From: Terriglobia bacterium
Lineage (GTDB): Bacteria; Acidobacteriota; Terriglobia; Bryobacterales; Bryobacteraceae
Length of the DNA stretch: 64,000 nt
Direction of reading: 5' to 3'
NCBI GenBank assembly: GCA_021325235.1
Contig: JAJPHN010000006.1
Span: forward strand, 62,001 to 126,000
Notes under the pieces: generated by a model
The model's input: only the letters and a program-made list of their open reading frames with translations
The model's database searches: none
Told to the model about the DNA's origin: nothing
Shown here: positions 33,577-50,032 of the stretch, one piece after another
Numbering within the stretch: position 1 is the stretch's first letter
Layout: every line of letters starts with the position of its first letter
Made by a program: the position numbers and the translations under genes

Positions 33577-33918
33577 CTAGCGGCTTAACCCGTGCGCCGG
33601 ATTGTTCGCCCAGGGCTGAGCCTGATACGTCCAGTTACGAGTCTTGTAGTCGCTCGCGGTGAGCAGGATCATGATGAACAACCACACCAGTCCCGCTACC
33701 ACGAACAGCCGCGTCAAGGTCGTGACATGACGCACGCCCATGAAAATCCAGACCACGAGCGACGCTTTCGTCACGGCGATCAGCAGCGCGATCACGATGT
33801 TCCATTCGCCGAATTCGAACGAGGCCACCCACGTTGTGAGTGCGGTGAAGCAGATCAGCGCTGCCCAGACCAGCACCAGCGTTTTAACTTTCGGAATAGC
33901 TACTTCATGCGCGCTCAT
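33577..33918 (-). CDS. ctaF: Cytochrome c oxidase subunit IV
   Basis: This 113-residue membrane protein has three hydrophobic segments ([56 protein letters not shown]). It matches the small prokaryotic subunit IV of caa3-type oxidases. Its ATG overlaps the ctaE stop by four bases (ATGA) and it is the last gene of the act-cta unit. It probably stabilises the oxidase core. After its TAG the same frame stays open for 48 codons without a recognisable protein. Confidence 0.85.
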
Positions 33919-34619
33919 CGCTTGTGTCCAATCAGGTAAAGTAACGGGAACAGGAAAATCCAGACGATATCGACGAAGTGCCAGTACAGGCCGATCATTT
34001 CAACCGGCGCAAAATATCTCGCATGGAAAATGCCGCGCCAGGCCTGAATCACAAGATACGTCAGCAATCCGAGGCCGACGACCATGTGGATCGCGTGCAT
34101 ACCGGTCATGTAGAAGTAGAGCGAAAAGAGAATCTGCGCGTGATGGAAATAGTAGGACGGCTCGTAGGTAAATCGGAAGCCAGGTACTTTGTACTCCACC
34201 CACTTGGCGTGATATTCGATGCCCTTGATGACCAGGAACACCGTGCCGAAGATCATGGTCAGTATCAGAAAACGGATCAGATCCTTACGCCTGCTCAACT
34301 GCGCAGCGCGGACGGCGAGTGCCATGGTAAGCGAGCTGCAAATCAGCACCGCCGTATTCGCTCCGCCAAGCCGGACGTCCATGAATTCGCTGGTTGATGC
34401 GAAGGCGCCCGGATACATCGTGCGGTAGATCGCGTACGCCGTGAACATTCCGCCGAAGAACAGCACTTCGGTGATGAGGAACGTCCACATCCCGAGCGTG
34501 GCGGCGTCGGTCTGCTGCTCCGGCGTGGCGAAGTGGTGCCGAAGGTGCGTTTCCTGTGCTTCTAGTTCTTCCTGCCCGGCAGGTACGAGTGTTTCAGCCA
34601 ACGACTTCCTCCAACTCAC
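33915..34619 (-). CDS. ctaE: Cytochrome c oxidase subunit III
   Basis: This 234-residue protein has the seven-helix layout of heme-copper oxidase subunit III. It includes [20 protein letters not shown], a candidate proton- and lipid-binding region, and [13 protein letters not shown] plus [18 protein letters not shown] near the end, all family hallmarks. It overlaps ctaD by 26 bases at its start and ctaF by four at its end. Confidence 0.93.
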
Positions 34620-36231
34620 CGTAATCGTACGCTTCCTGCGTGACGACCGGCGTGGTATCGAAATTGAACGTGGTCGGCGGGGAGGGAATCGTCCACTCCA
34701 GCCCGCGCGCGTCGTACGGATTCATCCCGGCGCGCTTACCGTACTTGAGCGACCACAGGAAATAGATCATCGGGATCACGTACCCGACGCCCAGAATCGA
34801 AGCGCCCGCGCTCGAAAGCACATTCAGCGCCTGGAACTCTGGCGGATAGGCATGATAACGGCGCGGCATACCGAGATAACCCAATATGAACTGCGGGAAA
34901 AACGTCAGGTTGAAGCCGAGGAAGATGATCAGCGCGGCAAATTTCGCCCACGCTTCCGGATACATGCGCCCGGTCATCTTCGGCCACCAGAAGTGCAGCC
35001 CGCCCACAAACGCCATCACCATGCCGCCGACCATCACGTAGTGAAAATGCGCCACGATGAAATACGTTCCGTGCGTGGCAACGTCGGTGCCGAGCGCGGC
35101 CAGATAGAGTCCAGTTAAACCGCCAATCGTGAACAGGCCGATGAAACCGAAGGCGTAGAGCATCGGCGTATCAAACGAGATCGAACCCTTATACATGGTG
35201 GCCGTCCAGTTGAAAACCTTGATGGCGGAGGGAACCGCGACCATGAAGCTCAGGAACGAAAACGCGAGGCTGGTATACATGCTCTCGCCGGTGATGAACA
35301 TGTGATGGCCCCAGACCACAAAGCTCAGCACCGCAATCGCCATGCTCGAGAACGCGACGAAGTTGTAGCCGAATACGCGCTTATGCGAGAAGCAGGAGAC
35401 GATCTCGCTGATCACGCCCATGCCCGGCAGAATCATGATGTACACGGCCGGATGCGAATAGAACCAGAAAAGATGCTGAAAGAGAATCGGATCGCCTCCG
35501 ATATTCGGATCGAAGATGCCGACGTGCGCGATGCGCTCGAACGCCAGCAGCAGCAGGGTAATCGCGAGCACCGGGGTGCCGAGCACCTGGATCAGCCCGG
35601 TGGCATAGTTTGACCACACGAACAGCGGCAGGCGTGACCAGGTCATCCCCGGCGCGCGCATCTTGTGTACCGTAACGATGAAATTGAGGCCGGTGAGAAT
35701 CGATGAGAAGCCGGCGGTGAAGACGCCGAACGCAGCCGCCAGCACGTACGAGTTGGAGTAGGTGCTGCTATAAGGCGCGTAGAACGTCCAGCCCGTATCG
35801 ACGCCGCCGCGGATCACCGCATACAAAGTGAGCAGCGCGCCGACGACGTAGATGTACCAACTCAATAGATTGACTCGCGGAAAGGCCAGATCCTTGGCGC
35901 CCACCATGATCGGAATCAGGAAGTTGGCCAGCGTAGCCGGAATGGACGGCACCAGGAAGAAGAAGACCATGATGATGCCGTGCGCGGAGAAGAGACGGTT
36001 GTACGTCTCAGGCGCGAAGATGCCCTCCGGCTCGAGCAGATTGATGCGGAAAAGCACCGCCATCAGGCCGCCCACAAAGAACATCAGCGTAATCGAGATC
36101 AGATACAGGATCGCGATGCGCTTGTGGTCGGTGGTGAACAGCCAGCTCTTCCAGCCGTGCTCCACGTTCAGATAATTCACGCGACGCTCGGAGAGTTCCG
36201 GAGTGCCGTGGATGGGTGCAATGGTTGCCAT
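34594..36231 (-). CDS. ctaD: Cytochrome c oxidase subunit I, A2-type heme-copper oxidase
   Basis: This 545-residue catalytic subunit has twelve or more membrane helices and reduces oxygen to water while pumping protons. Heme a ligation is indicated by [12 protein letters not shown]. The CuB segment reads [18 protein letters not shown], and [11 protein letters not shown] supplies the CuB histidine pair. The YSHPAVY motif replaces the glutamate of A1 oxidases by Tyr-Ser and defines the A2 subfamily seen in Rhodothermus-like caa3 enzymes. The ATG at 36231 follows GAAGG and begins MATIAPIHG; longer upstream readings enter the ctaC gene. Confidence 0.95.
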
Positions 36232-36247
36232 TGTTGCCTTCTCTTTA

Positions 36248-37309
36248 CTACCTTTGGGCCGGTACAATCGGCGAAGCGCCGGTCTTGATGGCGCCATTCT
36301 TACCTTGCGGCGCGAGCACAACCGGCCGCTGCAAGCGTTCGCCCTGCTGAGACGCCGGCGTGGTCGGCGAGAGCGACTTGATGTATGCAATTAACTGAAT
36401 CACATTCTCCTCGCTCAGCTGGCCTTTGAAAACCGGCATGATGTTCGGTTCGAAACCAGCCGTAATCTTTGCATTCGGATCGAGTATTGATTCGCGGATG
36501 TAAGCATCGTCGGCGAGGACCGTACGTCCATCGGCAAGCTGCACGGGATGGTTGTACAGGCCGCGCAGGTTCGGGCAGCGCCCCTGCGAATCGAGCAGAT
36601 GGCAGGTCGAGCAGCCATTCTGCTGAAAGAGTTGTTGGCCCTGCGTGACCAGGTCTCCGCCGCCGCCGCCGCCGGATGCCCAGTTGGCGTATTCACGCGG
36701 CTCCATCGCATCCACCCAGCCGATCATGTTGGCGTGCTCGTTCCCGCAATACTCGGTGCAGAAGAGATGATAGTGGCCCGCCTTGGTCGCCGTGAACCAG
36801 ATCGTGTCGTAATGGCCAGGCACGACGTCGTGCCGCACGCGAAACGCCGGAATCGAGAAGCTGTGGATCACGTCTTCAGAAGCCATGGTCAGCTTCACCG
36901 GCTGGCCAACCGGAACGTGCAGCGCGTTGATCTCGCGGCTGCCATCGGGATACTGTATCTTCCACATCCACTGCTTGCCGGTAACGAAGACTTCCATCGC
37001 GTTTTTCGGCGGATTCTGCGCAGCGTAGTAGATCTTCGCTCCCCACCAGAAGAAGCTCAGCATGACGAAGAAGGGAAGTATCGACCAGGTCAGCTCGAGC
37101 TTCGTCGATCCCTCGATCTGCGTCGCTTTGACTCCGGGCTTGCGCTGGTATTTCCAGGCGAAGATGACGATGAAAAGAAAAATCAGGAACGTCATCACGC
37201 CGGAGACGATCGTCAGCCACCAGTAGAGACCGTCGATCGAGCCCGCCTGCGCGGAAGCCGCTACCGGAAACAGTTGCAGGTCGCTCAGCAAAGAGAGGTT
37301 AGCCCACAT
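36248..37309 (-). CDS. ctaC: Cytochrome c oxidase subunit II fused to cytochrome c (caa3 type)
   Basis: The 353-residue protein has two N-terminal membrane helices, a cupredoxin domain with the binuclear CuA ligands in [13 protein letters not shown], and a C-terminal cytochrome c domain with heme motif CSTCH and a later methionine ligand candidate in NIMPVFKG. The fused cytochrome accepts electrons from the partner complex without a soluble carrier. A glycine linker (SGGGGGG) joins the domains. Its start overlaps the sco stop by 11 bases. Confidence 0.95.
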
Positions 37310-38135
37310 GATGCGCCTCTTTCCACGCAGCGGCGCGCGATTTTTTATTCTTGTCGTCTCGCATGAGGAAATAGATCAGGATCACCAGGCCAAGCAGAGT
37401 AGCGATGCCAGCCGCTTTCAGAAGATTGACGATCGCGAGCGTGTATTTGCCTTGCGCCGCGTCGTAGTGAAAACAAAAGAGCAGCACATAATCAACCGGC
37501 GAGCCGATCTTATGCTGCGAAGCATCGACCAGCGCCATCCGCAGATCGCTCGGCGCGTAATCAATGCCGTAGAAATACCGCGAGAGCTTGCCGTCTGGCG
37601 TGGCAACCATAATGCCGCCGGCGTGGACGAACTGTTTGGTGCCGTCGTCCCAGCGATACCGGAACCCGACCGCATCCGCCAGCCGCGCGATGTTCTGCTG
37701 GTCCCCAGTCAAAAAATGGAATCCTTCGTCGTAGCCCGGGCGCGCACCGAACTGCGCCTTGTATTTGGTTTTCGTGAGCTGCGCGTCGTGCGGCGTGTCC
37801 TTCGGATCGAAGCTGACCACCACCACGTTGTAGTCTTTTCCGGGCACCAGCGCCACACGATGCAGACTTGTCACGGTTTCATGCAGGCTCATCGGACACA
37901 GGCTCGGGCAGTTGAAGTACACGAGCGAAATAACGACCGGCTTGTCTCGGAAATATTTCCAGAGCGGTACATTTTGCCCCGCTTCGTCGTGAAAAACCAG
38001 ATCGAGCGGGACCGGCTTATTCAACTTCTGCTCGATCGTGACACCGTTTGCAAGTTTCGGACGCGCGTACTGTGCCGGCGACAACAGCGCACCGGCGAGC
38101 AGCATTCCGAAAGCAGCAAACGTACTACTGCGCAT
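37299..38135 (-). CDS. SCO1/SenC copper chaperone for the CuA site
   Basis: The 278-residue product has a signal peptide (MRSSTFAAFGMLLAGALLS), a thioredoxin-like SCO domain with the copper-binding NCPSLCP (CxxxC) and the distal histidine in FVHAGG, and a C-terminal membrane helix (about 240-262). SCO proteins load or reduce the CuA centre of subunit II, which is encoded immediately downstream. ATG 38135 is chosen because it opens the signal peptide; it overlaps the previous gene by 11 bases. Confidence 0.92.
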   Translation of the reverse strand: MRSSTFAAFGMLLAGALLSPAQYARPKLANGVTIEQKLNKPVPLDLVFHDEAGQNVPLWKYFRDKPVVISLVYFNCPSLCPMSLHETVTSLHRVALVPGKDYNVVVVSFDPKDTPHDAQLTKTKYKAQFGARPGYDEGFHFLTGDQQNIARLADAVGFRYRWDDGTKQFVHAGGIMVATPDGKLSRYFYGIDYAPSDLRMALVDASQHKIGSPVDYVLLFCFHYDAAQGKYTLAIVNLLKAAGIATLLGLVILIYFLMRDDKNKKSRAAAWKEAHHVG

Positions 38136-38694
38136 TCTTACGAATCTCTCCTTGAATCGAAGGACGTTGATATTGTGGCGGCATATCCTGCACACTGCCC
38201 GCGAAGCGCCGACCCTCACCGCCCGGAGTGGTCAGCCCAACCGGAGCATTCGGCTCGACCTTGAGCCGCGGCACTACTGCTTCCATCGCATTCGCGATCG
38301 GAATGTGATAATGCCCCTGCTCGTCCTTGCCGGTCATGTTCAGGATCTTGTCTTCCTGCGCGCGCATCTGCGGCAGATCTTCCCAGGGCTGCACCTGAAG
38401 CTGCGGAGCGGGTGGTACGACGCGCTCGGGCGCCAGTGGGCTCGGCAGTTGCCCGAGCGGATGGCCGGCTTTGATATACGACTGAATGCCGATCGTCAGT
38501 GCGAAAACGATGACCAGTGTCAGACCGATGATGGCGAGCGAGCCAACCACCATTCCGGCGCTCGCATCCGTACCTTCGTAGCTGGTGCCTTCATGGCCGA
38601 CGTGCGGTTCAATGTGCTTCGGTCCTTCCGAATGCACCAGTTCGTTCACCTTCTTGCGTTCGAACTGCGTCCTTTGATCGGTTGGCTGATTCAT
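38125..38694 (-). CDS. Unnamed membrane protein in the ACIII-caa3 operon
   Basis: The 189-residue product has a charged N-terminus (1-45), one membrane helix (about 48-70), a proline-rich stretch, and a periplasmic-side segment DLPQMRAQEDKILNMTGKD followed by HIPIANAMEAVV. The L-x-x-MR-x-x-ED-x-x-L and IPI-x2-AM pattern recalls unnamed proteins that accompany cytochrome oxidase genes in several phyla. This is from memory and was not searched. Its ATG shares one base with the actF TAA, so it is translated in step with the complex. It may be an assembly factor or small subunit linking ACIII and the oxidase. Confidence 0.8.
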   Translation of the reverse strand: MNQPTDQRTQFERKKVNELVHSEGPKHIEPHVGHEGTSYEGTDASAGMVVGSLAIIGLTLVIVFALTIGIQSYIKAGHPLGQLPSPLAPERVVPPAPQLQVQPWEDLPQMRAQEDKILNMTGKDEQGHYHIPIANAMEAVVPRLKVEPNAPVGLTTPGGEGRRFAGSVQDMPPQYQRPSIQGEIRKNAQ

Positions 38695-39935
38695 TAGAGT
38701 ACGGCCGCCTCCGGCACCGGCGGGCTCACACGCGGATCATGCAGCGGCAGCAGCGGACGCCGGCGCAGCTGACGCATATAGGCGAATACCCAGATGCCGC
38801 CCAGCCCGATGAAGGCGGCGAAATCCGTCCAGTACAGTGCAAAGCCCGGCGCGGTATGGAGCGGATTGCTGTGGCTCGCGTTGCGGAACGTCGGAGCGAC
38901 GATCCAGAAGATATCGACGATGCGCGCCAGCAGCAGCCAGATGCAGATCTTGATTAATCTGCGCGGATCGCGCTTGCGAGCCTGCGAAAGCAGCGCGAGG
39001 AAGGGAACCAGGAACATGGTCAGCGCCACAACCAGCGCGAACCACTTCCACGGGCCGGCCACACGGTCCAGGTACCACACCAGTTCCTGCGGCAGGTTTG
39101 CCGGCCAGACGATAATCAACTGCGAGGCCGTCAGATATGTCCAGAATATCGTGAAGGCGAACATCATGTTGCCCAGATCATGCAGAATCTTGGGGTTGAT
39201 GCGGCCACCGAAGCGATCTTCTTTGGAAGCCAGTATGATCGCCATGTTGACCAGCGCGAAGGTTTGCAGAACGTCGCCGATCAGGATCATGGCGCCGTAC
39301 ACGGTCGAGAAGAACTGCGTGTCGGTCGAGAGAATCCAGTCGATATAGGCGAAGGTCATCACCATGGTGAAGACCAGCACACCCGGTGCGGCGAAGGCCC
39401 GCATCCGCTCTCGCAGCGTGGGGTCGCCCGTGCGGTCCTGTTCATCGGACCAGCGGTTCATGCGCCAGCCCCAGAACGCCATGATCACGAAGTAGCCGAT
39501 CATGCGTACGATGAAAAACGGCACGTTCAGGTACGGCTGTTTGTGACGCAGTACGGCGTCATTGGCAACGATGTCCGGGTGCGTCCACGGATACAGGTAC
39601 TTCATGCCGAGCAGCAGCACGAGGGTGTAGAGAAAGACCAGCGGCAGCGTGCGCATTGCTGCTTCGAGAAATCGCCGCGCCGTCACTTGCCAGCGGCCGC
39701 CTACCGTATTGCCCATCAGCAGCACGCCCAGCCCGCCGAACGCGAATCCGCTCCAGTAGATGTAGGCGAACAGGTACGACTGGAAAAAATGCGCGGCGTT
39801 GCTGAAGTAGCCGGCGGCGCAAAGCAATAGCCCCAGCACGCCGACGACACCCGATACATTCTCGACCGTTGCGGCCTTAGCCGGAAGCCGGAAGTCCGGT
39901 ACCGGAAAGTCTTCCGCGTGTAAATGTTGACTCAC
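38694..39935 (-). CDS. actF: Alternative complex III subunit ActF (NrfD/PsrC-like quinone-site protein)
   Basis: This 413-residue polytopic protein has about ten membrane helices and is paralogous to ActC. In ACIII the ActC/ActF pair forms the membrane quinol-oxidation unit. A GTG at 39935 overlapping the actE TGA (GTGA) fixes the start at MSQHLHAEDF. Upstream readings in this frame would overlap actE extensively and are arginine-rich shadow sequence. Helices include GVVGVLGLLLCAAGYF and FLVPFLALLSQ. Confidence 0.9.
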   Translation of the reverse strand: MSQHLHAEDFPVPDFRLPAKAATVENVSGVVGVLGLLLCAAGYFSNAAHFFQSYLFAYIYWSGFAFGGLGVLLMGNTVGGRWQVTARRFLEAAMRTLPLVFLYTLVLLLGMKYLYPWTHPDIVANDAVLRHKQPYLNVPFFIVRMIGYFVIMAFWGWRMNRWSDEQDRTGDPTLRERMRAFAAPGVLVFTMVMTFAYIDWILSTDTQFFSTVYGAMILIGDVLQTFALVNMAIILASKEDRFGGRINPKILHDLGNMMFAFTIFWTYLTASQLIIVWPANLPQELVWYLDRVAGPWKWFALVVALTMFLVPFLALLSQARKRDPRRLIKICIWLLLARIVDIFWIVAPTFRNASHSNPLHTAPGFALYWTDFAAFIGLGGIWVFAYMRQLRRRPLLPLHDPRVSPPVPEAAVL

Positions 39936-40519
39936 TTCATTCCTCCAGCCGGGCCGCCGCCCACCTTGGCGCCGTACTGTTCGGCCACCTGGGGCGGAGC
40001 ATCCTGGCTCAACTGTAGTGCGCGAATATACGCCGCGATGCGCCAGCGATCGTCGGGCGCCACGCGCGAAGCGTAGCTGTACATCGCGCCAAAACCGTTC
40101 GTCATCACGTCGAAAAAGTGTCCGATCGGTGCATTCACCAACCGCGGATCCAAATAATTCGGCGGCTGACGCAAACCGCGGCTGACGACCATGCCGTGGC
40201 CGTTGCCAAGCCTTCCATGGCAGGGCGAGCAATAGATATTGAAGCGCTCCTGCCCACGTTTGACATCCGCCTGCGTGATCTGAATCGGGAAATAATCGAT
40301 GTCTTTACCGTTCACCTTGCCGGTGAAGCGCGCTTCATCAATACGAAGCTGACCGCGGGCCACCGTATCGCGAATGGTCGGCCGCTCCGATCGGCCATCA
40401 CCGAAGAAATCGGTCGCAGCAAACGGCTTGTAGCGCGGTTGATTGTGCATGTCCTGCCGGCAGGCTGTGGTCACGAGCGTTGCGCCAAGCAGAACCAGGC
40501 CGAGTTTATGCCGGAACAA
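39932..40519 (-). CDS. actE: Alternative complex III subunit ActE, mono-heme cytochrome c lipoprotein
   Basis: The 195-residue exported protein has a lipobox-like leader ending in TTAC (C20), one heme motif CSPCH in RFNIYCSPCHG, and a late methionine candidate in AMYSYAS. ActE carries electrons from the ActB/ActA side to the acceptor cytochrome. It overlaps actD by 14 bases and actF by four. Confidence 0.92.
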   Translation of the reverse strand: MFRHKLGLVLLGATLVTTACRQDMHNQPRYKPFAATDFFGDGRSERPTIRDTVARGQLRIDEARFTGKVNGKDIDYFPIQITQADVKRGQERFNIYCSPCHGRLGNGHGMVVSRGLRQPPNYLDPRLVNAPIGHFFDVMTNGFGAMYSYASRVAPDDRWRIAAYIRALQLSQDAPPQVAEQYGAKVGGGPAGGMK

Positions 40520-41060
40520 GCGTCACCTCTTTTCCACCGAGCCCGCGCAGGAAATCGAGCGTACCGTCGGGTGTAAACTTCGGATCGCGTGACTCGATGC
40601 ACAGAAAAAACTTATCGATTGAGGCGCGCTCAAATTCCGGGATGTTGAACACCGGATGATACGGCTTCGGCAGCCCGTTCATGGCGAACATACTGATCAT
40701 CGCCGTCAGCGCCGAAAGAAGGATCATGCACTCGAAGGTGATCGGAATGTATGCCGGCCAGCTATTGAGCGGGCGTCCGCCGACGTTGTGCGGATAGGCG
40801 ATCACCGTGATCCATTCGAGCAAAGCGAAGCCGCCGATAGCGCCGCAGATGCCGCCGATCAGTACACAGAAAGCCACTTTGTTCCGCTTAAAGCCGATTG
40901 CCTCGGCCAGCCCTTCCACCGGCAGCGGAGCATAAGCGTCCATCTTCCGGAAACCCTCGGCATAGGCCTTTTCGCAGGCCGCAATCAGCTCCTCCGGCGT
41001 ATCGAATTCAGCCATGGCGCCGTGAATATCCTCAAGCGGGCTGAGTTCCAACTGACTCAT
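40506..41060 (-). CDS. actD: Alternative complex III subunit ActD (DUF3341)
   Basis: This 184-residue protein has a soluble N-terminal domain (FDTPEELIAACEKAYAEGF) and two membrane helices (about 65-90 and 103-128), the DUF3341 layout of ActD. It is a structural membrane subunit of ACIII. The start overlaps the actC stop by four bases. Confidence 0.92.
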   Translation of the reverse strand: MSQLELSPLEDIHGAMAEFDTPEELIAACEKAYAEGFRKMDAYAPLPVEGLAEAIGFKRNKVAFCVLIGGICGAIGGFALLEWITVIAYPHNVGGRPLNSWPAYIPITFECMILLSALTAMISMFAMNGLPKPYHPVFNIPEFERASIDKFFLCIESRDPKFTPDGTLDFLRGLGGKEVTLVPA

Positions 41061-42472
41061 TGCGCCTCCAACAATTCCTGCCGCTCGTGCGCCTCATGAT
41101 GCACCACCTCGCGCACTTCGAAGATCGAAATCGAAGGAAGCATGCGCACAAACAGGAACATCAGTAACAGGAAAAATCCAATCGTGCCGGCGTAGGTGCC
41201 CCAGTCGTACTTGGTCGGGATGTACATGCCCCAGGACGATGGCAGGAAGTCGCGATGCAGGCTCGTGACCACGATGACGAAGCGCTCCAGCCACATGCCG
41301 ATGTTGATGATGATCGACAGCACCCATACCGCCCAGATCGTCTGCCGCACCTTCTTGATCCAGAGCAGCTGCGGAATCGCGATATTGCAGGCGATCAGCA
41401 TGGCGTAAGTAAAGCCGTATGGGCCCGTCATGCGGTTCCAGTACATGAAGCTCTCGTACTTATCGCCGCTGTACCAGGAGAAGAACGCCTCCATCGAATA
41501 CCCGTAGGCGACGATCAGGCCGGTGCCGAGCATCAGCTTGGCGGCTGATTCGATATGCCGCAGCGTGACCAGATCGCGCATGTTGTACCAGGCGCGCATC
41601 GGAATGATCAGCGTGAGCACCATCGCAAAGCCGGAATAGATCGCGCCGGCGACGAAGTAGGGCGGGAAGATCGTCGTGTGCCAGCCGGGGATGATCGAAA
41701 TCGCGAAGTCGAAGCTGACGACCGTGTGCACGGAAAGCACGAGCGGCGTTGCCAGGCCGGCGAGCAGCAGATACGCTTTCTGATACCGGTGCCAGTGGAT
41801 CGCAGAACCGCGCCAGCCCAGCGCCAGCACCGCATATATCTTCTTCTGCCACATCTTGGGCGCGATGTCGCGCATCGTGGCAAGATCCGGAACAAGGCCG
41901 ATGTACCAGAACACCAGCGAAACCGTTCCGTACGTTGAGACCGCGAAGACGTCCCATTCGAGCGGGCTGCGCGGCTGCGGCCAGAGCCACATCGAATTGG
42001 GGTAGGGAAACAACCAGTACGCGAGCCATGGCCGTCCCAGGTGCAGGATCGGGAACATGCCGGCGCAAGCGACTGCGAAGAGCGTCATTGCTTCCGAGAA
42101 GCGGTTAATCGATGTTCGCCAGTCTTGTTTTAAGAGGAAAAGAATCGCCGAGATCAGCGTGCCCGCGTGGCCGATACCGATCCACCACACAAAGTTAACG
42201 ATCGCGAATCCCCAGCCGATCGGAATGTTGACGCCCCACGTGCCGATCCCGCGAAAGAACAGCACGTACATGCAGAACATCAGGATGTTGACAAAGATGA
42301 ACGAGATGAACGCGCCGACCAGCCACTTCTTGGGCGAATTCACCAGCGGCAGCAGTACCACGCCGCCAATGCGCTCGCTGACCGATTGATAGTCGTGTCC
42401 GGGGCTCAGGATCCGATTGGGCCCCGGATCCGGAATCTGCTCTGGCGGCAGCTCGATCTTTTCAGTTATCAC
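41057..42472 (-). CDS. actC: Alternative complex III subunit ActC (NrfD/PsrC family)
   Basis: This 471-residue integral membrane protein has about ten helices and is the NrfD-family quinol-binding subunit next to the Fe-S subunit ActB. Characteristic segments include WGFAIVNFVWWIGIGHAGT and ILHLGRPWLAYWLFPYPN. It donates quinol electrons toward the Fe-S chain of ActB. It overlaps its neighbours by four bases on each side. Confidence 0.94.
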   Translation of the reverse strand: MITEKIELPPEQIPDPGPNRILSPGHDYQSVSERIGGVVLLPLVNSPKKWLVGAFISFIFVNILMFCMYVLFFRGIGTWGVNIPIGWGFAIVNFVWWIGIGHAGTLISAILFLLKQDWRTSINRFSEAMTLFAVACAGMFPILHLGRPWLAYWLFPYPNSMWLWPQPRSPLEWDVFAVSTYGTVSLVFWYIGLVPDLATMRDIAPKMWQKKIYAVLALGWRGSAIHWHRYQKAYLLLAGLATPLVLSVHTVVSFDFAISIIPGWHTTIFPPYFVAGAIYSGFAMVLTLIIPMRAWYNMRDLVTLRHIESAAKLMLGTGLIVAYGYSMEAFFSWYSGDKYESFMYWNRMTGPYGFTYAMLIACNIAIPQLLWIKKVRQTIWAVWVLSIIINIGMWLERFVIVVTSLHRDFLPSSWGMYIPTKYDWGTYAGTIGFFLLLMFLFVRMLPSISIFEVREVVHHEAHERQELLEAQ

Positions 42473-45400
42473 GCTGACCTCTTGTTGCTCTTTAGCGCTT
42501 CATTCGAATTGCGAACATAACCCAGATACTGTGTCCGCGGATGCGTATTCAGATCGTCGAGCAGTCCGTACTTGCGCGGCAGCTGCTGCGATTTTGCGAC
42601 CTTGCTGCCTTTGTCGTTCAGATCGCCGAATGTGATCGCCTCCGTCGGGCAGACCTGCTGGCATGCTGTGAGAATTTCGCCGTCTCGCACCCGCCGCCCT
42701 TCTTTGTCGCTGGTGATCTTGGCTTCCTGAATACGCTGCACGCAGTAAGAGCACTTCTCCATCACGCCGCGGCTGCGCACCGTCACATCCGGATTACGAA
42801 CGCCGTACAAGCTCTCCGTGTTCCAGTCCGAGTAGAGATAGAAGTTGAACCGTCGCACTTTATAGGGGCAGTTATTCGAGCAGTACCGGGTGCCCACGCA
42901 GCGGTTGTAGACCATCTCGTTCAGTCCCTCGTTGCTGTGGACCGTTGCTGCCACCGGACAGACCACTTCGCACGGCGCATCTTCGCAGTGCATGCACGGA
43001 ATCGGCTGGTTGTACATCTCGGGCTGATCGAGGTCGCCCGAGTAATAGCGATCCACGCGAATCCAGTGCATGTGACGTCCACGCGCGACCTGATCCTTGC
43101 CGACCACCGCGATGTTGTTCTCCGCCTGGCACGCGATGATGCAGGCGCTGCAGCCGGTGCAGACGTTCAGATCGATTGTCATGCCCCACTTGTAGCCTTC
43201 GTACGGCCACTTCACGTCTTTGTACAGGCTTTCCGAATAAGGCTGCGGCTTTTCGAAGCGCGTCGGGAAGTTCGGATGTTCGCGGTATTCCGCCAGCTCC
43301 GCGTCACGCACCGGCTCACGTCCGGCCATAGTCTGCGTTTCCTGCGTATTCGCGATCCGGTACTGTTCGCCGGTCTTGGCAACCGAGCCCGCGGCCACAT
43401 ACGGCGTCGACGCATCCTGGATCAGGTAAGCGTTGTAACCGATCTTGTTTCCGACGCGGCCTGAGCCTTCCCGTCCATAACCGAAATAGACCGTGATCGA
43501 ATCTTCGGCGTGTCCCGGGAGCACCCAGGTCGGCCCCACCACGCTCTTGCCGTTTACCGTCACGCGCAGCATGTCGCCCTTGTCGACCTTCAGCTGCCCC
43601 GCCTGCTTCGGGCTGATCGCGACGATGTTGTCCCAGGTCATCTTGGTCTGCGGCTTGGGACATTCCTGCAGCCATCCATTATTCGAGTACTTGCCATCGG
43701 CAATCGTCGGGTCGGGCCGGTAGACCACCTCGAGCCCATTCACCGGCTGCTGATCCAGCGCGGGCAGCGCGACTGCGTTGCCTTTGATCGTGCCGATCGC
43801 CGTGTTTGCCAGCCAGCCATCGTGCAGCGAAATCTGCCAGAAGTCGTCGAAATTGCCGCCTTTGTAGCGGTTCTGCCAGTACCCTTTTACGATCTCGTGG
43901 CTGTTCTGGTCCGGCTTTCCGAGCAGAATCGAAATTACTTCATGCGCCGACTTGCCGTTGTAAAGCGGCTCAATCAGCGGCTGCTGTATGGTGATCGTGC
44001 CGTCGAAGGCGCGCGCATCCGACCACGTTTCCAGATAATGCGCTTCGGGAATGTGCCAGTGGCTCCAGCGCGAGGTCTCGTCGAAAAACTGCCCGAGCCT
44101 GACCACCATGCGCGCCTTGCGCATCGCCTGCTGGAAATTGAGCGTCACGGGCGCGGTATACACCGGATTCTGGCCGAGGATCACGAGCGTCTCCACATGC
44201 CCGTTGTTCAGATCGTTGACCAGTTCCTCGAGCGAATGCGTGTTCTCGGGCTCTACGCCCTCCAGTACATTCACCGTGCTGCCGATGTTTCCGAGCGCGG
44301 CATTGATAGCGTATGCGGCAAGATGCACGCTCTCGGGCTGCCACTCGCCGGGGATCACTACCGAGCGGCCTTTATTCTTCTGCAGGTCCTGCGCGACGAT
44401 GTTCACCCAGTCTGGCGCGCCGCCCGGTGCCGAAGCCGATACGCCGCAGGCTGCCGCGAGCTGATACGCAATCGAGGGAACAGCGCTGCTCTTCACCGGA
44501 AAGCGGTGATCGGCCAGCGAGCCACTCACCGACGGCGACGATTCGATGGCGTACAAACGTACCGGTGTCTCGCCATTATCAATCGCGCGCTTCTTTGCAA
44601 ACTGCCGCGCATATCGCAGCGCCGCCGGACCACAGTTTAGGAAATCGGCCTCGAGCGAGACCACCACGTCCGCTTTCGACAGATCGTATGAGACGAATGC
44701 GTTTCGGCCTGCAATCTTTTTGGCCGCGCTCGCAATGGCCGGATTGACGGTTGGATCCGAAACGTACCACTTGCTCGAGGGAAATTGCTGCGCCAGCGAC
44801 TGCATCTGGTCAAGAAACGTCGGCGAAGTCATCGGGCCGCTCAGAATCGCGAGCCCTTCGCCTTTACGCGTTGCCAGTTCCTGTGCCTCTGTGCTGAATT
44901 TGCCCGTGAATTCGCCCCAGGTGCTCAGCCGTCCTTCGTTCAGCACGTTTTCCGATCGGTCCGGATCGTAAACATCGAGCACCGAAGCCTGCTCGAAATA
45001 CGTCGTGGCGCCAAGGCTCGCCGGATGATCCGGATTGCCTTCCACTTTCGTCGGCCGATTCAGATGGCTTTCCACCAGCAGACCGCGCGCATACCCGCCG
45101 GTGGTCATCGCGGTGGCATAAAACAGCGGTACGCCCGGAATCACGTTTTCCGGCTGCCGTACATAGGGAACGATCAGCTCTTTCGGCTGCTTGGTACAAG
45201 CCGCTGCGCCCGCCATCGCGAGCGAGGCCGCCATTACCTTCAGCAAACTGCGCCGGTCAACCCCCTGCGGGATCTGTCCCGATAGCCCGGGGAACTCCTG
45301 CTCCACGTACTCGCGCATCTCTTCGCTTTCGGCAGCTTCGTCGAGCGTGCGCCAGAACTGCGGCCCGCGTCCTTCGGCCAGTTTCTTCCGGAGCTCTTCG

Positions 45401-45495
45401 ATATCGATCCGCTTGCTCGGCTTCTCTACCAGCGCTTCCAGCGGGATCAGTCCGCCGTTCCGCGAGTGTCCATTGTGAGAATGCATGTCGCTCAT
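42469..45495 (-). CDS. actB: Alternative complex III subunit ActB (fused molybdopterin-like and Fe-S subunit)
   Basis: This 1008-residue exported protein has a twin-arginine-like signal near 80 (DRRSLLKVMAASLAMAG). An N-terminal domain homologous to molybdopterin oxidoreductases follows, which in ActB is thought to lack the cofactor. The C-terminal half is a four-cluster ferredoxin-like domain: CTGCSACIIAC, CMHCEDAPCEVVCP, CVGTRYCSNNCP, CSYCVQRI and CQQVCP. It relays electrons from the membrane subunits to the heme subunits. It overlaps actA and actC by four bases each. Confidence 0.95.
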   Translation of the reverse strand: MSDMHSHNGHSRNGGLIPLEALVEKPSKRIDIEELRKKLAEGRGPQFWRTLDEAAESEEMREYVEQEFPGLSGQIPQGVDRRSLLKVMAASLAMAGAAACTKQPKELIVPYVRQPENVIPGVPLFYATAMTTGGYARGLLVESHLNRPTKVEGNPDHPASLGATTYFEQASVLDVYDPDRSENVLNEGRLSTWGEFTGKFSTEAQELATRKGEGLAILSGPMTSPTFLDQMQSLAQQFPSSKWYVSDPTVNPAIASAAKKIAGRNAFVSYDLSKADVVVSLEADFLNCGPAALRYARQFAKKRAIDNGETPVRLYAIESSPSVSGSLADHRFPVKSSAVPSIAYQLAAACGVSASAPGGAPDWVNIVAQDLQKNKGRSVVIPGEWQPESVHLAAYAINAALGNIGSTVNVLEGVEPENTHSLEELVNDLNNGHVETLVILGQNPVYTAPVTLNFQQAMRKARMVVRLGQFFDETSRWSHWHIPEAHYLETWSDARAFDGTITIQQPLIEPLYNGKSAHEVISILLGKPDQNSHEIVKGYWQNRYKGGNFDDFWQISLHDGWLANTAIGTIKGNAVALPALDQQPVNGLEVVYRPDPTIADGKYSNNGWLQECPKPQTKMTWDNIVAISPKQAGQLKVDKGDMLRVTVNGKSVVGPTWVLPGHAEDSITVYFGYGREGSGRVGNKIGYNAYLIQDASTPYVAAGSVAKTGEQYRIANTQETQTMAGREPVRDAELAEYREHPNFPTRFEKPQPYSESLYKDVKWPYEGYKWGMTIDLNVCTGCSACIIACQAENNIAVVGKDQVARGRHMHWIRVDRYYSGDLDQPEMYNQPIPCMHCEDAPCEVVCPVAATVHSNEGLNEMVYNRCVGTRYCSNNCPYKVRRFNFYLYSDWNTESLYGVRNPDVTVRSRGVMEKCSYCVQRIQEAKITSDKEGRRVRDGEILTACQQVCPTEAITFGDLNDKGSKVAKSQQLPRKYGLLDDLNTHPRTQYLGYVRNSNEALKSNKRSA

Positions 45496-46142
45496 CGATG
45501 GCAGGTCACGCAGTCCGTCAAAGACTGTACGTGGTACTCCTTCACAAGCTGGCGGCCCAGTTCCGCCTGATTCGATGGGTAAACGTAGTCGATGTTGAAC
45601 ACTTCCGATTTCGGCCGGATGTAACGCGAGGGGTCGCGATGGCAGTTAATGCACCAGTTCATGTTCAGCGTGTTGACCTTGAACATCAGCGGCATCTCGT
45701 CCACCTGACCGTGGCAGGTCGAGCAGCCGATGCCTTTGTTGATGTGAATGCTGTGGTTGAAATAAACGAAGTCGGGCAGATCGTGCACCCGCGTCCAGGC
45801 GATCGATTTGCCGCTCGACCAGGAATCGCGAATGGGCTGCGTAATGTTGACGTTGTTCCAGATCTGCGAATGGCACGTCATGCAGGTCTCAGTCGGCGGC
45901 AGCCCGGCGTAGTGCGAAGTTTCGACGCCGGTATGGCAGTAGCGGCAGTCGATCCCGTCGTCCTTGACATGGTGTTTATGGCTGAACATGATCGGCTGCT
46001 CGGGCGCTTGCTGGACCCCCGTGGTCCAGTGGCCGCGGTCCATGATGTAGGCCACCGCGAGCGTTGAGCCGAGGAGCAGGACGATCGCGGCGAGCGACAC
46101 CTTCGCGATCGTATTCGAAGCGGGTCGGAACAGTTGTGCCAT
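45492..46142 (-). CDS. actA: Alternative complex III subunit ActA, pentaheme cytochrome c
   Basis: This 216-residue membrane-anchored cytochrome has one N-terminal helix (about 15-32) and five CxxCH heme motifs (66-70, 87-91, 140-144, 164-168 and 211-215), the pentaheme count known for ActA. It is the first gene of the twelve-gene operon and its ATG at 46142 lies 23 bp from the nearer tandem palindrome. No strong ribosome site is visible. The longer reading to 46184 would translate through the palindromes and is not favoured. Confidence 0.95.
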   Translation of the reverse strand: MAQLFRPASNTIAKVSLAAIVLLLGSTLAVAYIMDRGHWTTGVQQAPEQPIMFSHKHHVKDDGIDCRYCHTGVETSHYAGLPPTETCMTCHSQIWNNVNITQPIRDSWSSGKSIAWTRVHDLPDFVYFNHSIHINKGIGCSTCHGQVDEMPLMFKVNTLNMNWCINCHRDPSRYIRPKSEVFNIDYVYPSNQAELGRQLVKEYHVQSLTDCVTCHR

Positions 46143-46164
46143 AGGCGCTGAAAGACTACTCCCT

Positions 46165-46215
46165 GGATGCGACCTCGCACCCACGAAAAGGGATGCGACC
46201 TCGCATCCACCAAAA
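46165..46215. promoter_or_regulatory. Tandem palindrome (two 18-bp dyads, 26 bp apart) in the actA leader
   Basis: The 25-base unit at 46165-46189 is repeated at 46191-46215 with two mismatches. Each contains an 8-bp inverted repeat around two bases; the copy at 46191-46208 is perfect (GGATGCGA / TCGCATCC), the other has one change. On the transcript that change becomes a G-U pair, so two short hairpins are also possible. The dyads sit just downstream of the predicted -10 element, the usual place for a repressor operator. No regulator gene was linked to them. Confidence 0.65.
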
Positions 46216-46219
46216 GCGG

Positions 46220-46250
46220 ATTATATACCCGACCAATGGAAAATTTGCAA
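46220..46250 (-). promoter_or_regulatory. Predicted sigma-70-like promoter of the act-cta operon
   Basis: On the minus strand TTGCAA (46250-46245) is followed by TATATAAT (46227-46220). The spacer is 17 bp to TATATA or 19 bp to TATAAT. It points at actA and lies between tsaB and the tandem palindromes. Confidence 0.6.
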
Positions 46251-46282
46251 CGTCGCAATAACTTTTCTTGTTTTGCGAGAAA

Positions 46283-46891
46283 TCACGCCTCGCGCCAGTG
46301 CAACTCGGCGTCGCTGCGCCGCACATAATTCGCATCGAGTACAGCGGGGTCGAGCCACTTGCCCTGTCCATCCAGTTCGGCGCAGAGAGCAACAGCCGGT
46401 GCAAGCGGCTGATTGGTTCCGTGAATGATTTCGTGCTGGCGCGCAGAACCGAGCGCGGCAAGAAATTCCTCGAGAGGTCCTACGGTTTCTTCAGTGGCGA
46501 GCCGCAACCCCGCATCGTAGACCGCCGTATAGACCTCCGAGCGGCGCGCATCGAGAATGACCGCGCGCAAGCCGGCATTTTTGCCAAACGAAGCCAAAGC
46601 CCTCAGATTCGAGATTCCGCTCACTGGTTTTGCCAAAGCTTCGCCCAGTCCTTTCACCGCGGTTAGCCCGACCCGCACTCCGGTGAACGAGCCCGGTCCG
46701 GCGGCCGCCGCAAAGCAGTCGACCTCTTCGAGGTCAATTTTGGCTTCGTTCCTGCATTTTCCGATCAGACCGAAGAGCAAATGAGCAAAACCACCGGCCG
46801 ATTCGAGCGTGACTGTCGAGACGGTTTCGCCTTTTCTGCGGATTGCCACGCTGGCGAGATTGGATGTTGTATCAACGGCGAGAATGGTCAC
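46283..46891 (-). CDS. tsaB: tRNA threonylcarbamoyladenosine biosynthesis protein TsaB
   Basis: This 202-residue protein of the ASKHA fold partners TsaD in making t6A37 in tRNA. ILAVDTTSNLASVAI opens the fold and AAAAGPGSFTGVRVGLTAVKG is the strongly conserved TsaB motif. The GTG start at 46891 overlaps the TGA of the upstream glycosidase gene (GTGA), so the two are translationally coupled. TsaD and TsaE are not in the window. Confidence 0.93.
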   Translation of the reverse strand: MTILAVDTTSNLASVAIRRKGETVSTVTLESAGGFAHLLFGLIGKCRNEAKIDLEEVDCFAAAAGPGSFTGVRVGLTAVKGLGEALAKPVSGISNLRALASFGKNAGLRAVILDARRSEVYTAVYDAGLRLATEETVGPLEEFLAALGSARQHEIIHGTNQPLAPAVALCAELDGQGKWLDPAVLDANYVRRSDAELHWREA

Positions 46892-48644: not shown

Positions 48645-49325
48645 TCAATTTACGAGAATCGTTTCCGCCAGAAGCAGCGCCAGTGCCGTGAAGACTACAT
48701 CGAAAACCACCAGCACGCGGCCCCAAAGCCACTGACTTTCGCTGATCGGCTGGTTGGTGAAGAGCGCGTTGGTCAACTCGATCGCGGCAATCAAGAGCGG
48801 GATCAACAACGGATAGATGATGACGGGCAGCATCAGCTCGCGTAGCCGCAGATTGACCGTCAGCGCTCCAAACACCCCGCCGAGCACGGCAATGCCCCAG
48901 GTCGTCAGCACGAAGAAGAGTATCAGCAGACCCGGCTGAAGCCACCAGCGAATGTTGTAAAAGATGCCAAACACAAAAAGCGATACGATCTCAACGGCCA
49001 GCAGCGTCACAAAATTCGAAATCGCTTTGCCGATCAGCAGACTCGGCGCCGAAAGGGAAGAGGACAGCAGGGCATCCAGGCATTCATTCGGCAGCTCCCG
49101 CGCAAAGCCGCGATTGAAAACCAGCGCTCCCGCAAATGCGAAAACGAGCCACAAGAGACCACCGGCGAACTCGCGTGTCTCGGCGGAATTTACATCCAGA
49201 GCGAAGCTGAAGAGCAGCAGAATCGCAATCGCAAAAGCGCCGGCTGCGTTCAGCGATTCTTTGGTGCGCAGCTCGAGCGCCAGATCCTTGCGCGCGATGA
49301 GCCACGCCTGCCGCAGCGTATTCAA
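48645..49325 (-). CDS. ccmB: Heme exporter membrane subunit CcmB
   Basis: This 226-residue protein has six membrane helices. It fits CcmB, the permease of the CcmAB ABC unit that supplies energy for releasing heme from CcmE during cytochrome c maturation. The N-terminal AWLIARKDLALELRTKESL is typical. It overlaps ccmA by four bases. System I maturation is consistent with the many CxxCH proteins encoded upstream; ccmC, E and F are not in the window. Confidence 0.9.
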   Translation of the reverse strand: MNTLRQAWLIARKDLALELRTKESLNAAGAFAIAILLLFSFALDVNSAETREFAGGLLWLVFAFAGALVFNRGFARELPNECLDALLSSSLSAPSLLIGKAISNFVTLLAVEIVSLFVFGIFYNIRWWLQPGLLILFFVLTTWGIAVLGGVFGALTVNLRLRELMLPVIIYPLLIPLLIAAIELTNALFTNQPISESQWLWGRVLVVFDVVFTALALLLAETILVN

Positions 49326-50032
49326 GCGGCGCCGAGCTCCGTGTATAGCCGGTACAGGTACGCCGGGTCGTCAAGCATCTCAGCCGTACGCTCGCCCGAG
49401 TAGCGCAAACGGCCGTTCTCAACCAGCGCCACATGTGAAGCAATCGACAGCGCTTCCCGCAACTGGTGCGTGGAGAGAATGATCGTCGCACCGCTGCGGC
49501 GAGCCTCCTCCAGTAATTCGCTGAGCATGGCGATGGCGCGATCGTCGAGTGAGGTAAACGGTTCGTCGAGCAGCAGCAAGCGCGGATTATGCAGGAACGT
49601 GCGTGCCAGTGCGAGGCGCTGTCGCATTCCGCGTGAAAACTGCCGCACCGGCATCTGTGCGACCTTCTCGAGACCGACCCGAGCAAGCCAGCGCGCGCTT
49701 GTATCTTCCGCATTCCCAGCGCCGGCAATTCGCGCGAAAAACAGCAGGTTCTCGCGCGCCGATAAATCTTCGTAGACGCCGATGCCGTGTCCCAGAAAGC
49801 CAGTGCGCCGCCGCGCCTCCTCGCTCCTTGGCTTTTCCCGAAAGAGGCGAATCTCACCACGCTGAAACGGAGAGAGTCCCGCCAGAATGCGCAGCAGCGT
49901 GGTTTTTCCCGCGCCGTTTCGCCCCAGCAGCGCGCAGCAGGCGCCCGCATTGATGGTGAGCGAGACGTCACGCAGAGCAGCGTAATCGCCGTAGAACTTC
50001 CAGACGCCTTCGAGCCGTATCTCGTCAGCCAT
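49322..50032 (-). CDS. ccmA: Heme exporter ATP-binding protein CcmA
   Basis: This 236-residue ABC ATPase has Walker A GRNGAGKTTLLR (about 37-48), signature FSRGMRQRLALAR and Walker B LLLLDEPFTSLD, with the H-loop in STHQL. Together with CcmB it powers heme handling for cytochrome c biogenesis. The preceding gene ends exactly one base before its ATG, and ccmB overlaps its end by four bases. Confidence 0.88.
   Translation of the reverse strand: MADEIRLEGVWKFYGDYAALRDVSLTINAGACCALLGRNGAGKTTLLRILAGLSPFQRGEIRLFREKPRSEEARRRTGFLGHGIGVYEDLSARENLLFFARIAGAGNAEDTSARWLARVGLEKVAQMPVRQFSRGMRQRLALARTFLHNPRLLLLDEPFTSLDDRAIAMLSELLEEARRSGATIILSTHQLREALSIASHVALVENGRLRYSGERTAEMLDDPAYLYRLYTELGAA

Follow-up and report, generated by a model that had tools for sequence, protein, structure and literature searches.

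The question raised by this locus is whether a pair of tandem palindromes, lying between a predicted promoter and the first gene of a respiratory operon, is the place where that operon is regulated. The window, i.e. the whole stretch of 64,000 nucleotides of a Terriglobia bacterium (Bryobacteraceae) that was analysed, carries on its minus strand actA, identified by Pfam as the gene for the multihaem cytochrome c subunit of alternative complex III (ACIII; 45492..46142, with the ATG at 46142), followed on the same strand by the remaining operon genes (33915..45495): actB, an NrfD-like gene, actD, a cytochrome c gene, two ORFs that gave no Pfam match, SCO1/SenC, COX2, COX1 and COX3. The order by Pfam is one of ACIII genes and then caa3 oxidase genes, with Fe-S domains and weak molybdopterin domains found in actB, and the initial annotation, which had been made from the sequence letters and had placed an actA promoter and an ACIII-caa3 operon here, was right about this context. 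On the other side of the promoter region lies a tsaB-like gene (Pfam TsaD family; 46283..46891, minus strand, the same as actA). Slightly upstream of this cytochrome-rich operon, at window positions 48645-50032 and on the same strand, are genes for a CcmB-like permease and an ABC ATPase of the cytochrome c maturation type (Pfam).

The promoter itself consists of a good -10 hexamer and little else that is recognizable. TATAAT is found at 46220..46225 (minus strand, read from 46225 to 46220), as initially claimed, but the -35 that had been paired with it is poor: no sigma-70-type pair occurs at a spacing of 16-18 on the actA strand, and the candidate TTGCAA is 19 bp from TATAAT. The hexamer in the 14 genus sequences (window included) was chosen by the pattern TATAAT/TATACT/TATCAT, so that its conservation is by construction; the C directly after it, which was not chosen by any pattern, is present in 14 of 14. 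Judging from the spacing to the -10, the transcript is predicted to start at about 46211-46213, and the TTGG found there (46210..46213, minus strand) is partly conserved at that distance from the -10, its four bases being kept in 12, 12, 11 and 9 of the 14 genus sequences, respectively. Both palindromes fall between this predicted start and the actA ATG.

The palindromes exist as they were first described, 26 bp apart and each with a near-perfect 18-bp dyad, and they make up two adjacent 26-bp units. The promoter-proximal unit (46191..46216, minus strand) has a perfect 18-bp dyad at 46191-46208, with 8-bp arms and a 2-bp centre, while the dyad of the second unit (46165..46190, minus strand) is at 46165-46182 and has one A-to-G difference in the mRNA sense; since the actA mRNA is read from the minus strand, this change gives a G-U pair and the pairing is kept, again as first proposed. 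The units are identical at 24 of 26 positions and the dyads at 17 of 18. Among the tandem repeats that TRF gives for the window, this pair has the highest score (93); a further tandem repeat, of 24 bases in 2.1 copies, is internal to actB (44418-44469). A pattern derived from the site itself, with up to three mismatches allowed, matches the window four times, at each of the two sites on either strand; shuffled sequence gives 0.19 matches on average, and none of 100 shuffles reaches four. When single perfect dyads were counted (arms no shorter than 8 bp, spacers no longer than 6), there were 46 in 464 kb of the bacterium's own genome and five in the window; a single dyad with 8-bp arms is not rare, and what is unusual is the tandem repetition. 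The criteria of the scan for other tandem dyads were too strict to recover even this pair.

How widely do the palindromes occur? The exact dyad was found at one locus in one of 257 genomes of the order, and in none of the 256 other genomes. In the own genome (5.03 Mb), the 18-mer at zero or one mismatch returns the unit pair alone. A 16-base pattern with up to two mismatches gives 47 sites there, consisting of the pair, 44 sites in predicted genes (as assigned by a simple codon-usage caller) and one other noncoding site, with two mismatches; the search for other copies proposed in the initial annotation comes down to this lone site. The near-matches of the 16-base pattern are commoner than those of its backwards control, 47 vs 6, and we put this excess down to coding sequence because 44 of the 47 are in predicted genes. 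Five places of the own genome within three mismatches of the 18-mer (L003-L007), considered as further promoter copies, were rejected as they overlap long open frames. Across 121 genomes of the family, matches with up to two mismatches occur in 33, and matches to the backwards control in 12. The possibility of a scattered, dispersed (REP-like) palindromic repeat, which had also been raised at the outset, is ruled out, as the 18-mer at 0-1 mismatch finds only the pair and the exact dyad occupies one locus.

The comparison of actA upstream regions, which the initial annotation had proposed as a check, gave the outcome that it had named as refuting, and does not support an operator. The dyads are absent in all 14 of the genus relatives read, in which ActA is up to 86% identical, and in a 15th close relative from another genus (L009). 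When the entire 140-bp leader was searched as DNA against the genus's 16 other genomes, nothing matched at E<=0.001. All of these comparisons are between species, the nearest relative being already ~0.4 substitutions per site away, and a tree built from actA plus 900 bases, with L094 left out, resolves the radiation poorly; the end branches of its genus rows are 0.13 to 0.45 changes per column long.

The leader in which the palindromes sit is variable in both length and sequence. Measured from the end of the -10, it is 77 nt long in the window vs 50.9 +- 5.7 nt in 14 relatives, i.e. too long by about one 26-bp unit, so that the variable leader looks as if it had undergone a duplication. The 14 genus leaders were anchored at the -10 without gaps, which would blur a motif that shifts by indels; beginning 16 nt past the first -10 base, their columns hold between -0.14 and 0.25 bits each. 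The promoter-proximal unit by itself is predicted to form a 7-pair hairpin of -11.4 kcal/mol. When prefixes of the transcript are folded, the first 25 nt already give a predicted hairpin of -11.8 kcal/mol, and at 50 nt the two units are predicted to fuse into one of -29.4 kcal/mol, compared with a total of -22.9 kcal/mol for two separate hairpins. The fused hairpin is predicted to stop 21 nt before the ATG, with the start codon itself uncovered; in longer folds a separate, weaker predicted stem takes in the start region. Compared with shuffled sequence, the 73 nt of the window's leader fold more stably (z -3.53, 0/300), and the 123-nt stretch of leader and actA start does not do so significantly (z -1.35, 17/200 shuffles).

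A conserved leader structure was considered and did not reach significance across the relatives. Leader fold z values in 15 relatives range from -1.35 to 1.96, not better than shuffles as a group. A TGCG...CGCA hairpin is present in two of 14 relatives (L083 and L085), at 13 and 17 nt after the -10, where the window has it at 14; the hairpin of L085 gives p 0.007 alone, and Fisher's method over the 14 relatives gives p 0.099. Going by these sequences, a single hairpin could predate the duplication and have been kept. Relative L085 (genome G124) has GGGTGCGAAATGCCGCACC and then TTTTT directly after its actA promoter, which makes a better terminator-like hairpin than the one in the window.

The explanation we prefer, with a probability of roughly 0.6, is that the palindrome is a 26-bp tandem duplication in a fast-changing leader, private to the lineage among the genomes searched, that it would give a hairpin RNA, and that regulation is more likely to act through a separate element upstream of the promoter. 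According to this explanation, a tandem duplication of 26 bp would have arisen in the variable 5' leader of the ACIII-caa3 operon. As each unit holds a palindrome, the transcript would start with self-complementary RNA, in which a first hairpin would form by about nucleotide 25 and, once the second copy is made, would refold to give a single long hairpin with it. The likeliest effect, if there is any, would be a modest one, on the stability of the transcript's 5' end or on promoter escape. No dedicated regulator is indicated for the palindrome. Of the two functions first suggested for it, the leader hairpin may still hold: the predicted fused hairpin of about -29 kcal/mol speaks for it, and it would be a private and probably minor feature.

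Much of the same evidence would suit a purely neutral outcome of slippage that affects neither the RNA nor transcription, given the variable leader, the length difference of about one unit, the restriction to a single genome and the fact that such dyads are common (46 in 464 kb). We consider this unlikely, because a very stable hairpin at the 5' end of an mRNA would probably influence its stability at least to some degree, and the hairpin predicted here, at -29 kcal/mol, would stand at the 5' end of a long operon transcript. The other function first suggested, that of a repressor operator, would make the dyads twin operators of a lineage-private repressor that blocks RNA polymerase just downstream of the start. 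The geometry is what one would expect of such sites, as they are symmetric, 18 bp long and nearly identical (17/18), and follow each other at a distance of 26 bp immediately downstream of the predicted start. However, their absence at actA in 15 of 15 relatives, the absence of the exact dyad from the 256 other genomes of the order, the single other noncoding match in the own genome, with its two mismatches, and a Pfam scan of 20 neighbouring proteins, which found no regulator gene among them, all count against a repressor, and we regard twin operators as quite improbable.

We give still less credence to the leader as an attenuator or terminator, in which the first hairpin and the following CTTTTCG would stop transcription early or would shield actA from transcription that runs on from the tsaB-like gene. 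It is true that the first hairpin is terminator-like, with 7 pairs and the tail CTTTTCGTGG, and that the hairpin of L085, followed by TTTTT, is found at a similar place. Yet in the window there are only four T in a row, with no T run after the second copy, and a terminator within the operon's own leader would block the operon's own promoter too. In addition, positions 45900-46500 gave no Rfam match at E<=5 and the leaders of most relatives are without a significant hairpin. The tandem duplication in a changing leader is in our opinion the better account of the palindrome, and the regulation of the operon is probably to be sought elsewhere.

Just upstream of the promoter lies a 41-bp element (46242..46282, minus strand), at whose edge the tsaB-like gene ends. 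It had not been singled out in the initial annotation, yet unlike the palindrome it is kept in related species. Its core dyad, CAAGAAAAGTTATTG at 46256-46270, has the form CAAGAA-N3-TT(C/A)TTG and is centred ~50 bp upstream of the predicted start. The majority sequence of the block in 13 relatives is TTTATATC-N3-ACAAGAA-N-G-N-TTCTTGC-N-AAA-N-CG-N-AAAA-N, and, of the 15 sequences from the genus, the window's among them, all but L090 could be anchored on the block. The core occurs within two mismatches in 12 of 15 genus orthologs, the window again included, compared with none of six second actA copies and one of 97 distinct other upstream regions. Since the consensus of the element itself served as the anchor, in the range of 85-130 nt from the ATG, the weight is carried by the unanchored flanks and by the held-out window copy. 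The flanking columns are invariant, with TT upstream and A downstream in 14 of 14. When the window was left out and a matrix was built from the 13 relatives, the window copy scored 33.1 bits, compared with 14.3 bits for the second-best separate site in 464 kb; in leave-one-out runs, 13 of 13 copies rank first in their own locus, although a second-ranked site may simply be that near-palindrome read from the opposite strand. By these counts the element is kept at orthologous promoters.

The exceptions to this pattern are few. The element is missing in two of 16 loci (L090, and L009 of the other genus), neither of which contributed to the matrix, the model or the count of information, and it is weak in L086 and L091, with four core mismatches. 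A calibrated model, also built without the window, reports a single match in the own genome at E<=5, which is the window site, with an E of 0.025 and positions 1-30 of 41 covered. At that threshold no second site turned up at another promoter of the own genome among the 150 of 1123 first-look candidates that were scored. The 13 genus genomes with strong model matches are those that built the model, and the window's genome alone is independent. G101 has two equal model matches, one of them at the start of another contig, and two genomes of the genus that have no ActA match at E<=1e-40, G130 and G133, have no model match below E 0.09. Two matches away from actA in other genomes have a better E than the window copy (0.0033 and 0.011); the best of them, G123:C556 at 0.0033, overlaps a long open frame.

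The core by itself is not enriched over its backwards control in the own genome (13 vs 14 sites at one mismatch). In G000 and G050 the perfect core is found at actA and nowhere else; G124 has it four times, once at actA, and G125 and G127 have it once each, not at actA. A 17-base pattern likewise has 12 places vs 11 for the control in the 257 genomes, and four of its five matches in the genus are at actA. As the core alone is no commoner than the control, the claim rests on where it lies and on the longer block. Seven genomes of other genera, G156, G221 and G224 among them, also have matches to the 17-base pattern, in no case before a clear actA-like -10 as judged by eye. We also considered whether the element is a trace of the neighbouring tsaB-like gene. 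This is not supported: across 15 genus loci and five named records of genomes already among these, with flanks that mostly reach ~1.5 kb upstream (0.1 kb only in L010), tsaB is beside actA in the window's locus alone.

The symmetric conservation of the element and its position upstream of a poor -35 suggest a homodimeric activator, and the element resembles a candidate activator site of the ACIII-caa3 operon. Transcription of the operon would then more likely be regulated through 46242-46282, upstream of the weak -35, by a homodimeric activator. A broader version of this idea is that the 41-bp element is the target of an undescribed respiratory regulator that would switch the ACIII-caa3 operon in the genus and in some species would also act on the ATP synthase and on a second caa3 operon, with the palindrome as a local addition tuning the same transcript. 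Two sets of upstream regions bear on it. Upstream of atpF, the element matches in L303 (G132, 31.5 bits) and L304 (G131, 24.7 bits), starting ~120-130 bases before the gene for the ATP synthase b subunit. The other 15 of the 17 atpF-type upstream regions score -13.7 to 9.0 bits, and among them are five, at 4.9 to 9.0 bits, that score above 97% or more of their shuffles; the region of the window's genome is at -4.2 bits (p 0.50). G132 and G131 are sisters in the tree, and several atpF regions have a TTGACC...TTAGCGT or GCTAGCGT arrangement at the same place, so that the match in the two sisters may be coincidence. Separately from the atpF and COX2 regions, 30 stretches were fetched, of which 26 were used, all but L257-L260.

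In the case of coxB, the matches are in L320 (G134, 23.8 bits) and L330 (G126, 24.9 bits), in opposite orientations and ~60 bases before the guessed COX2 start, and the COX2 gene in both belongs to another oxidase operon. Thirty COX2 loci were fetched and 28 tested, one being without upstream DNA. The other 25 COX2 upstream regions score 6.5 bits or less, with L339 (6.5 bits, p 0.015) alone beating most shuffles; the tested COX2 copy of G000 does not (p 0.105). From sequence, then, a regulon of oxidative phosphorylation genes beyond actA is only a hint, to be taken as a lead, and the broader version as a whole seems unlikely to us.

The tandem palindrome is probably not the place to seek a regulator of this operon, and the conserved upstream element, which gives a defined bait, is the better lead. 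The matter is of some interest given the ACIII-A2 caa3 superoperon of Acidobacteria, for which PMC8407424 reports O2-dependent expression in opposite directions in two strains: expression in KBS 83 is lower at 0.001 than at 10 umol/l O2, and in T. roseus KBS 63 it is higher at 0.001 than at 10 umol/l O2. The window operon is like that superoperon in having the same kind of gene order, with ACIII before caa3. The words "promoter" and "binding site" are not mentioned in the main text of that paper, whereas the upstream element described here was found at actA in one genus. Among the papers covered, a full-text search found none joining alternative complex III and caa3 with a transcriptional regulator and a binding site.

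The palindrome can be set beside two general types of site. One is that of dimeric repressors which bind tandem operators placed downstream of the promoter, and the window is like it in having two symmetric 18-bp sites at a fixed spacing after the predicted start; it differs in that the dyads are not conserved, have one noncoding near-match and come with no candidate regulator found. The other type is that of the 5'-terminal stem-loops which, as in ompA, stabilise bacterial mRNAs. Unlike these, the predicted hairpin of the window shows no significant conservation and is made of a tandem palindromic duplication; like them, it is predicted to be stable, to lie near the 5' end and to stop 21 nt before the start codon.
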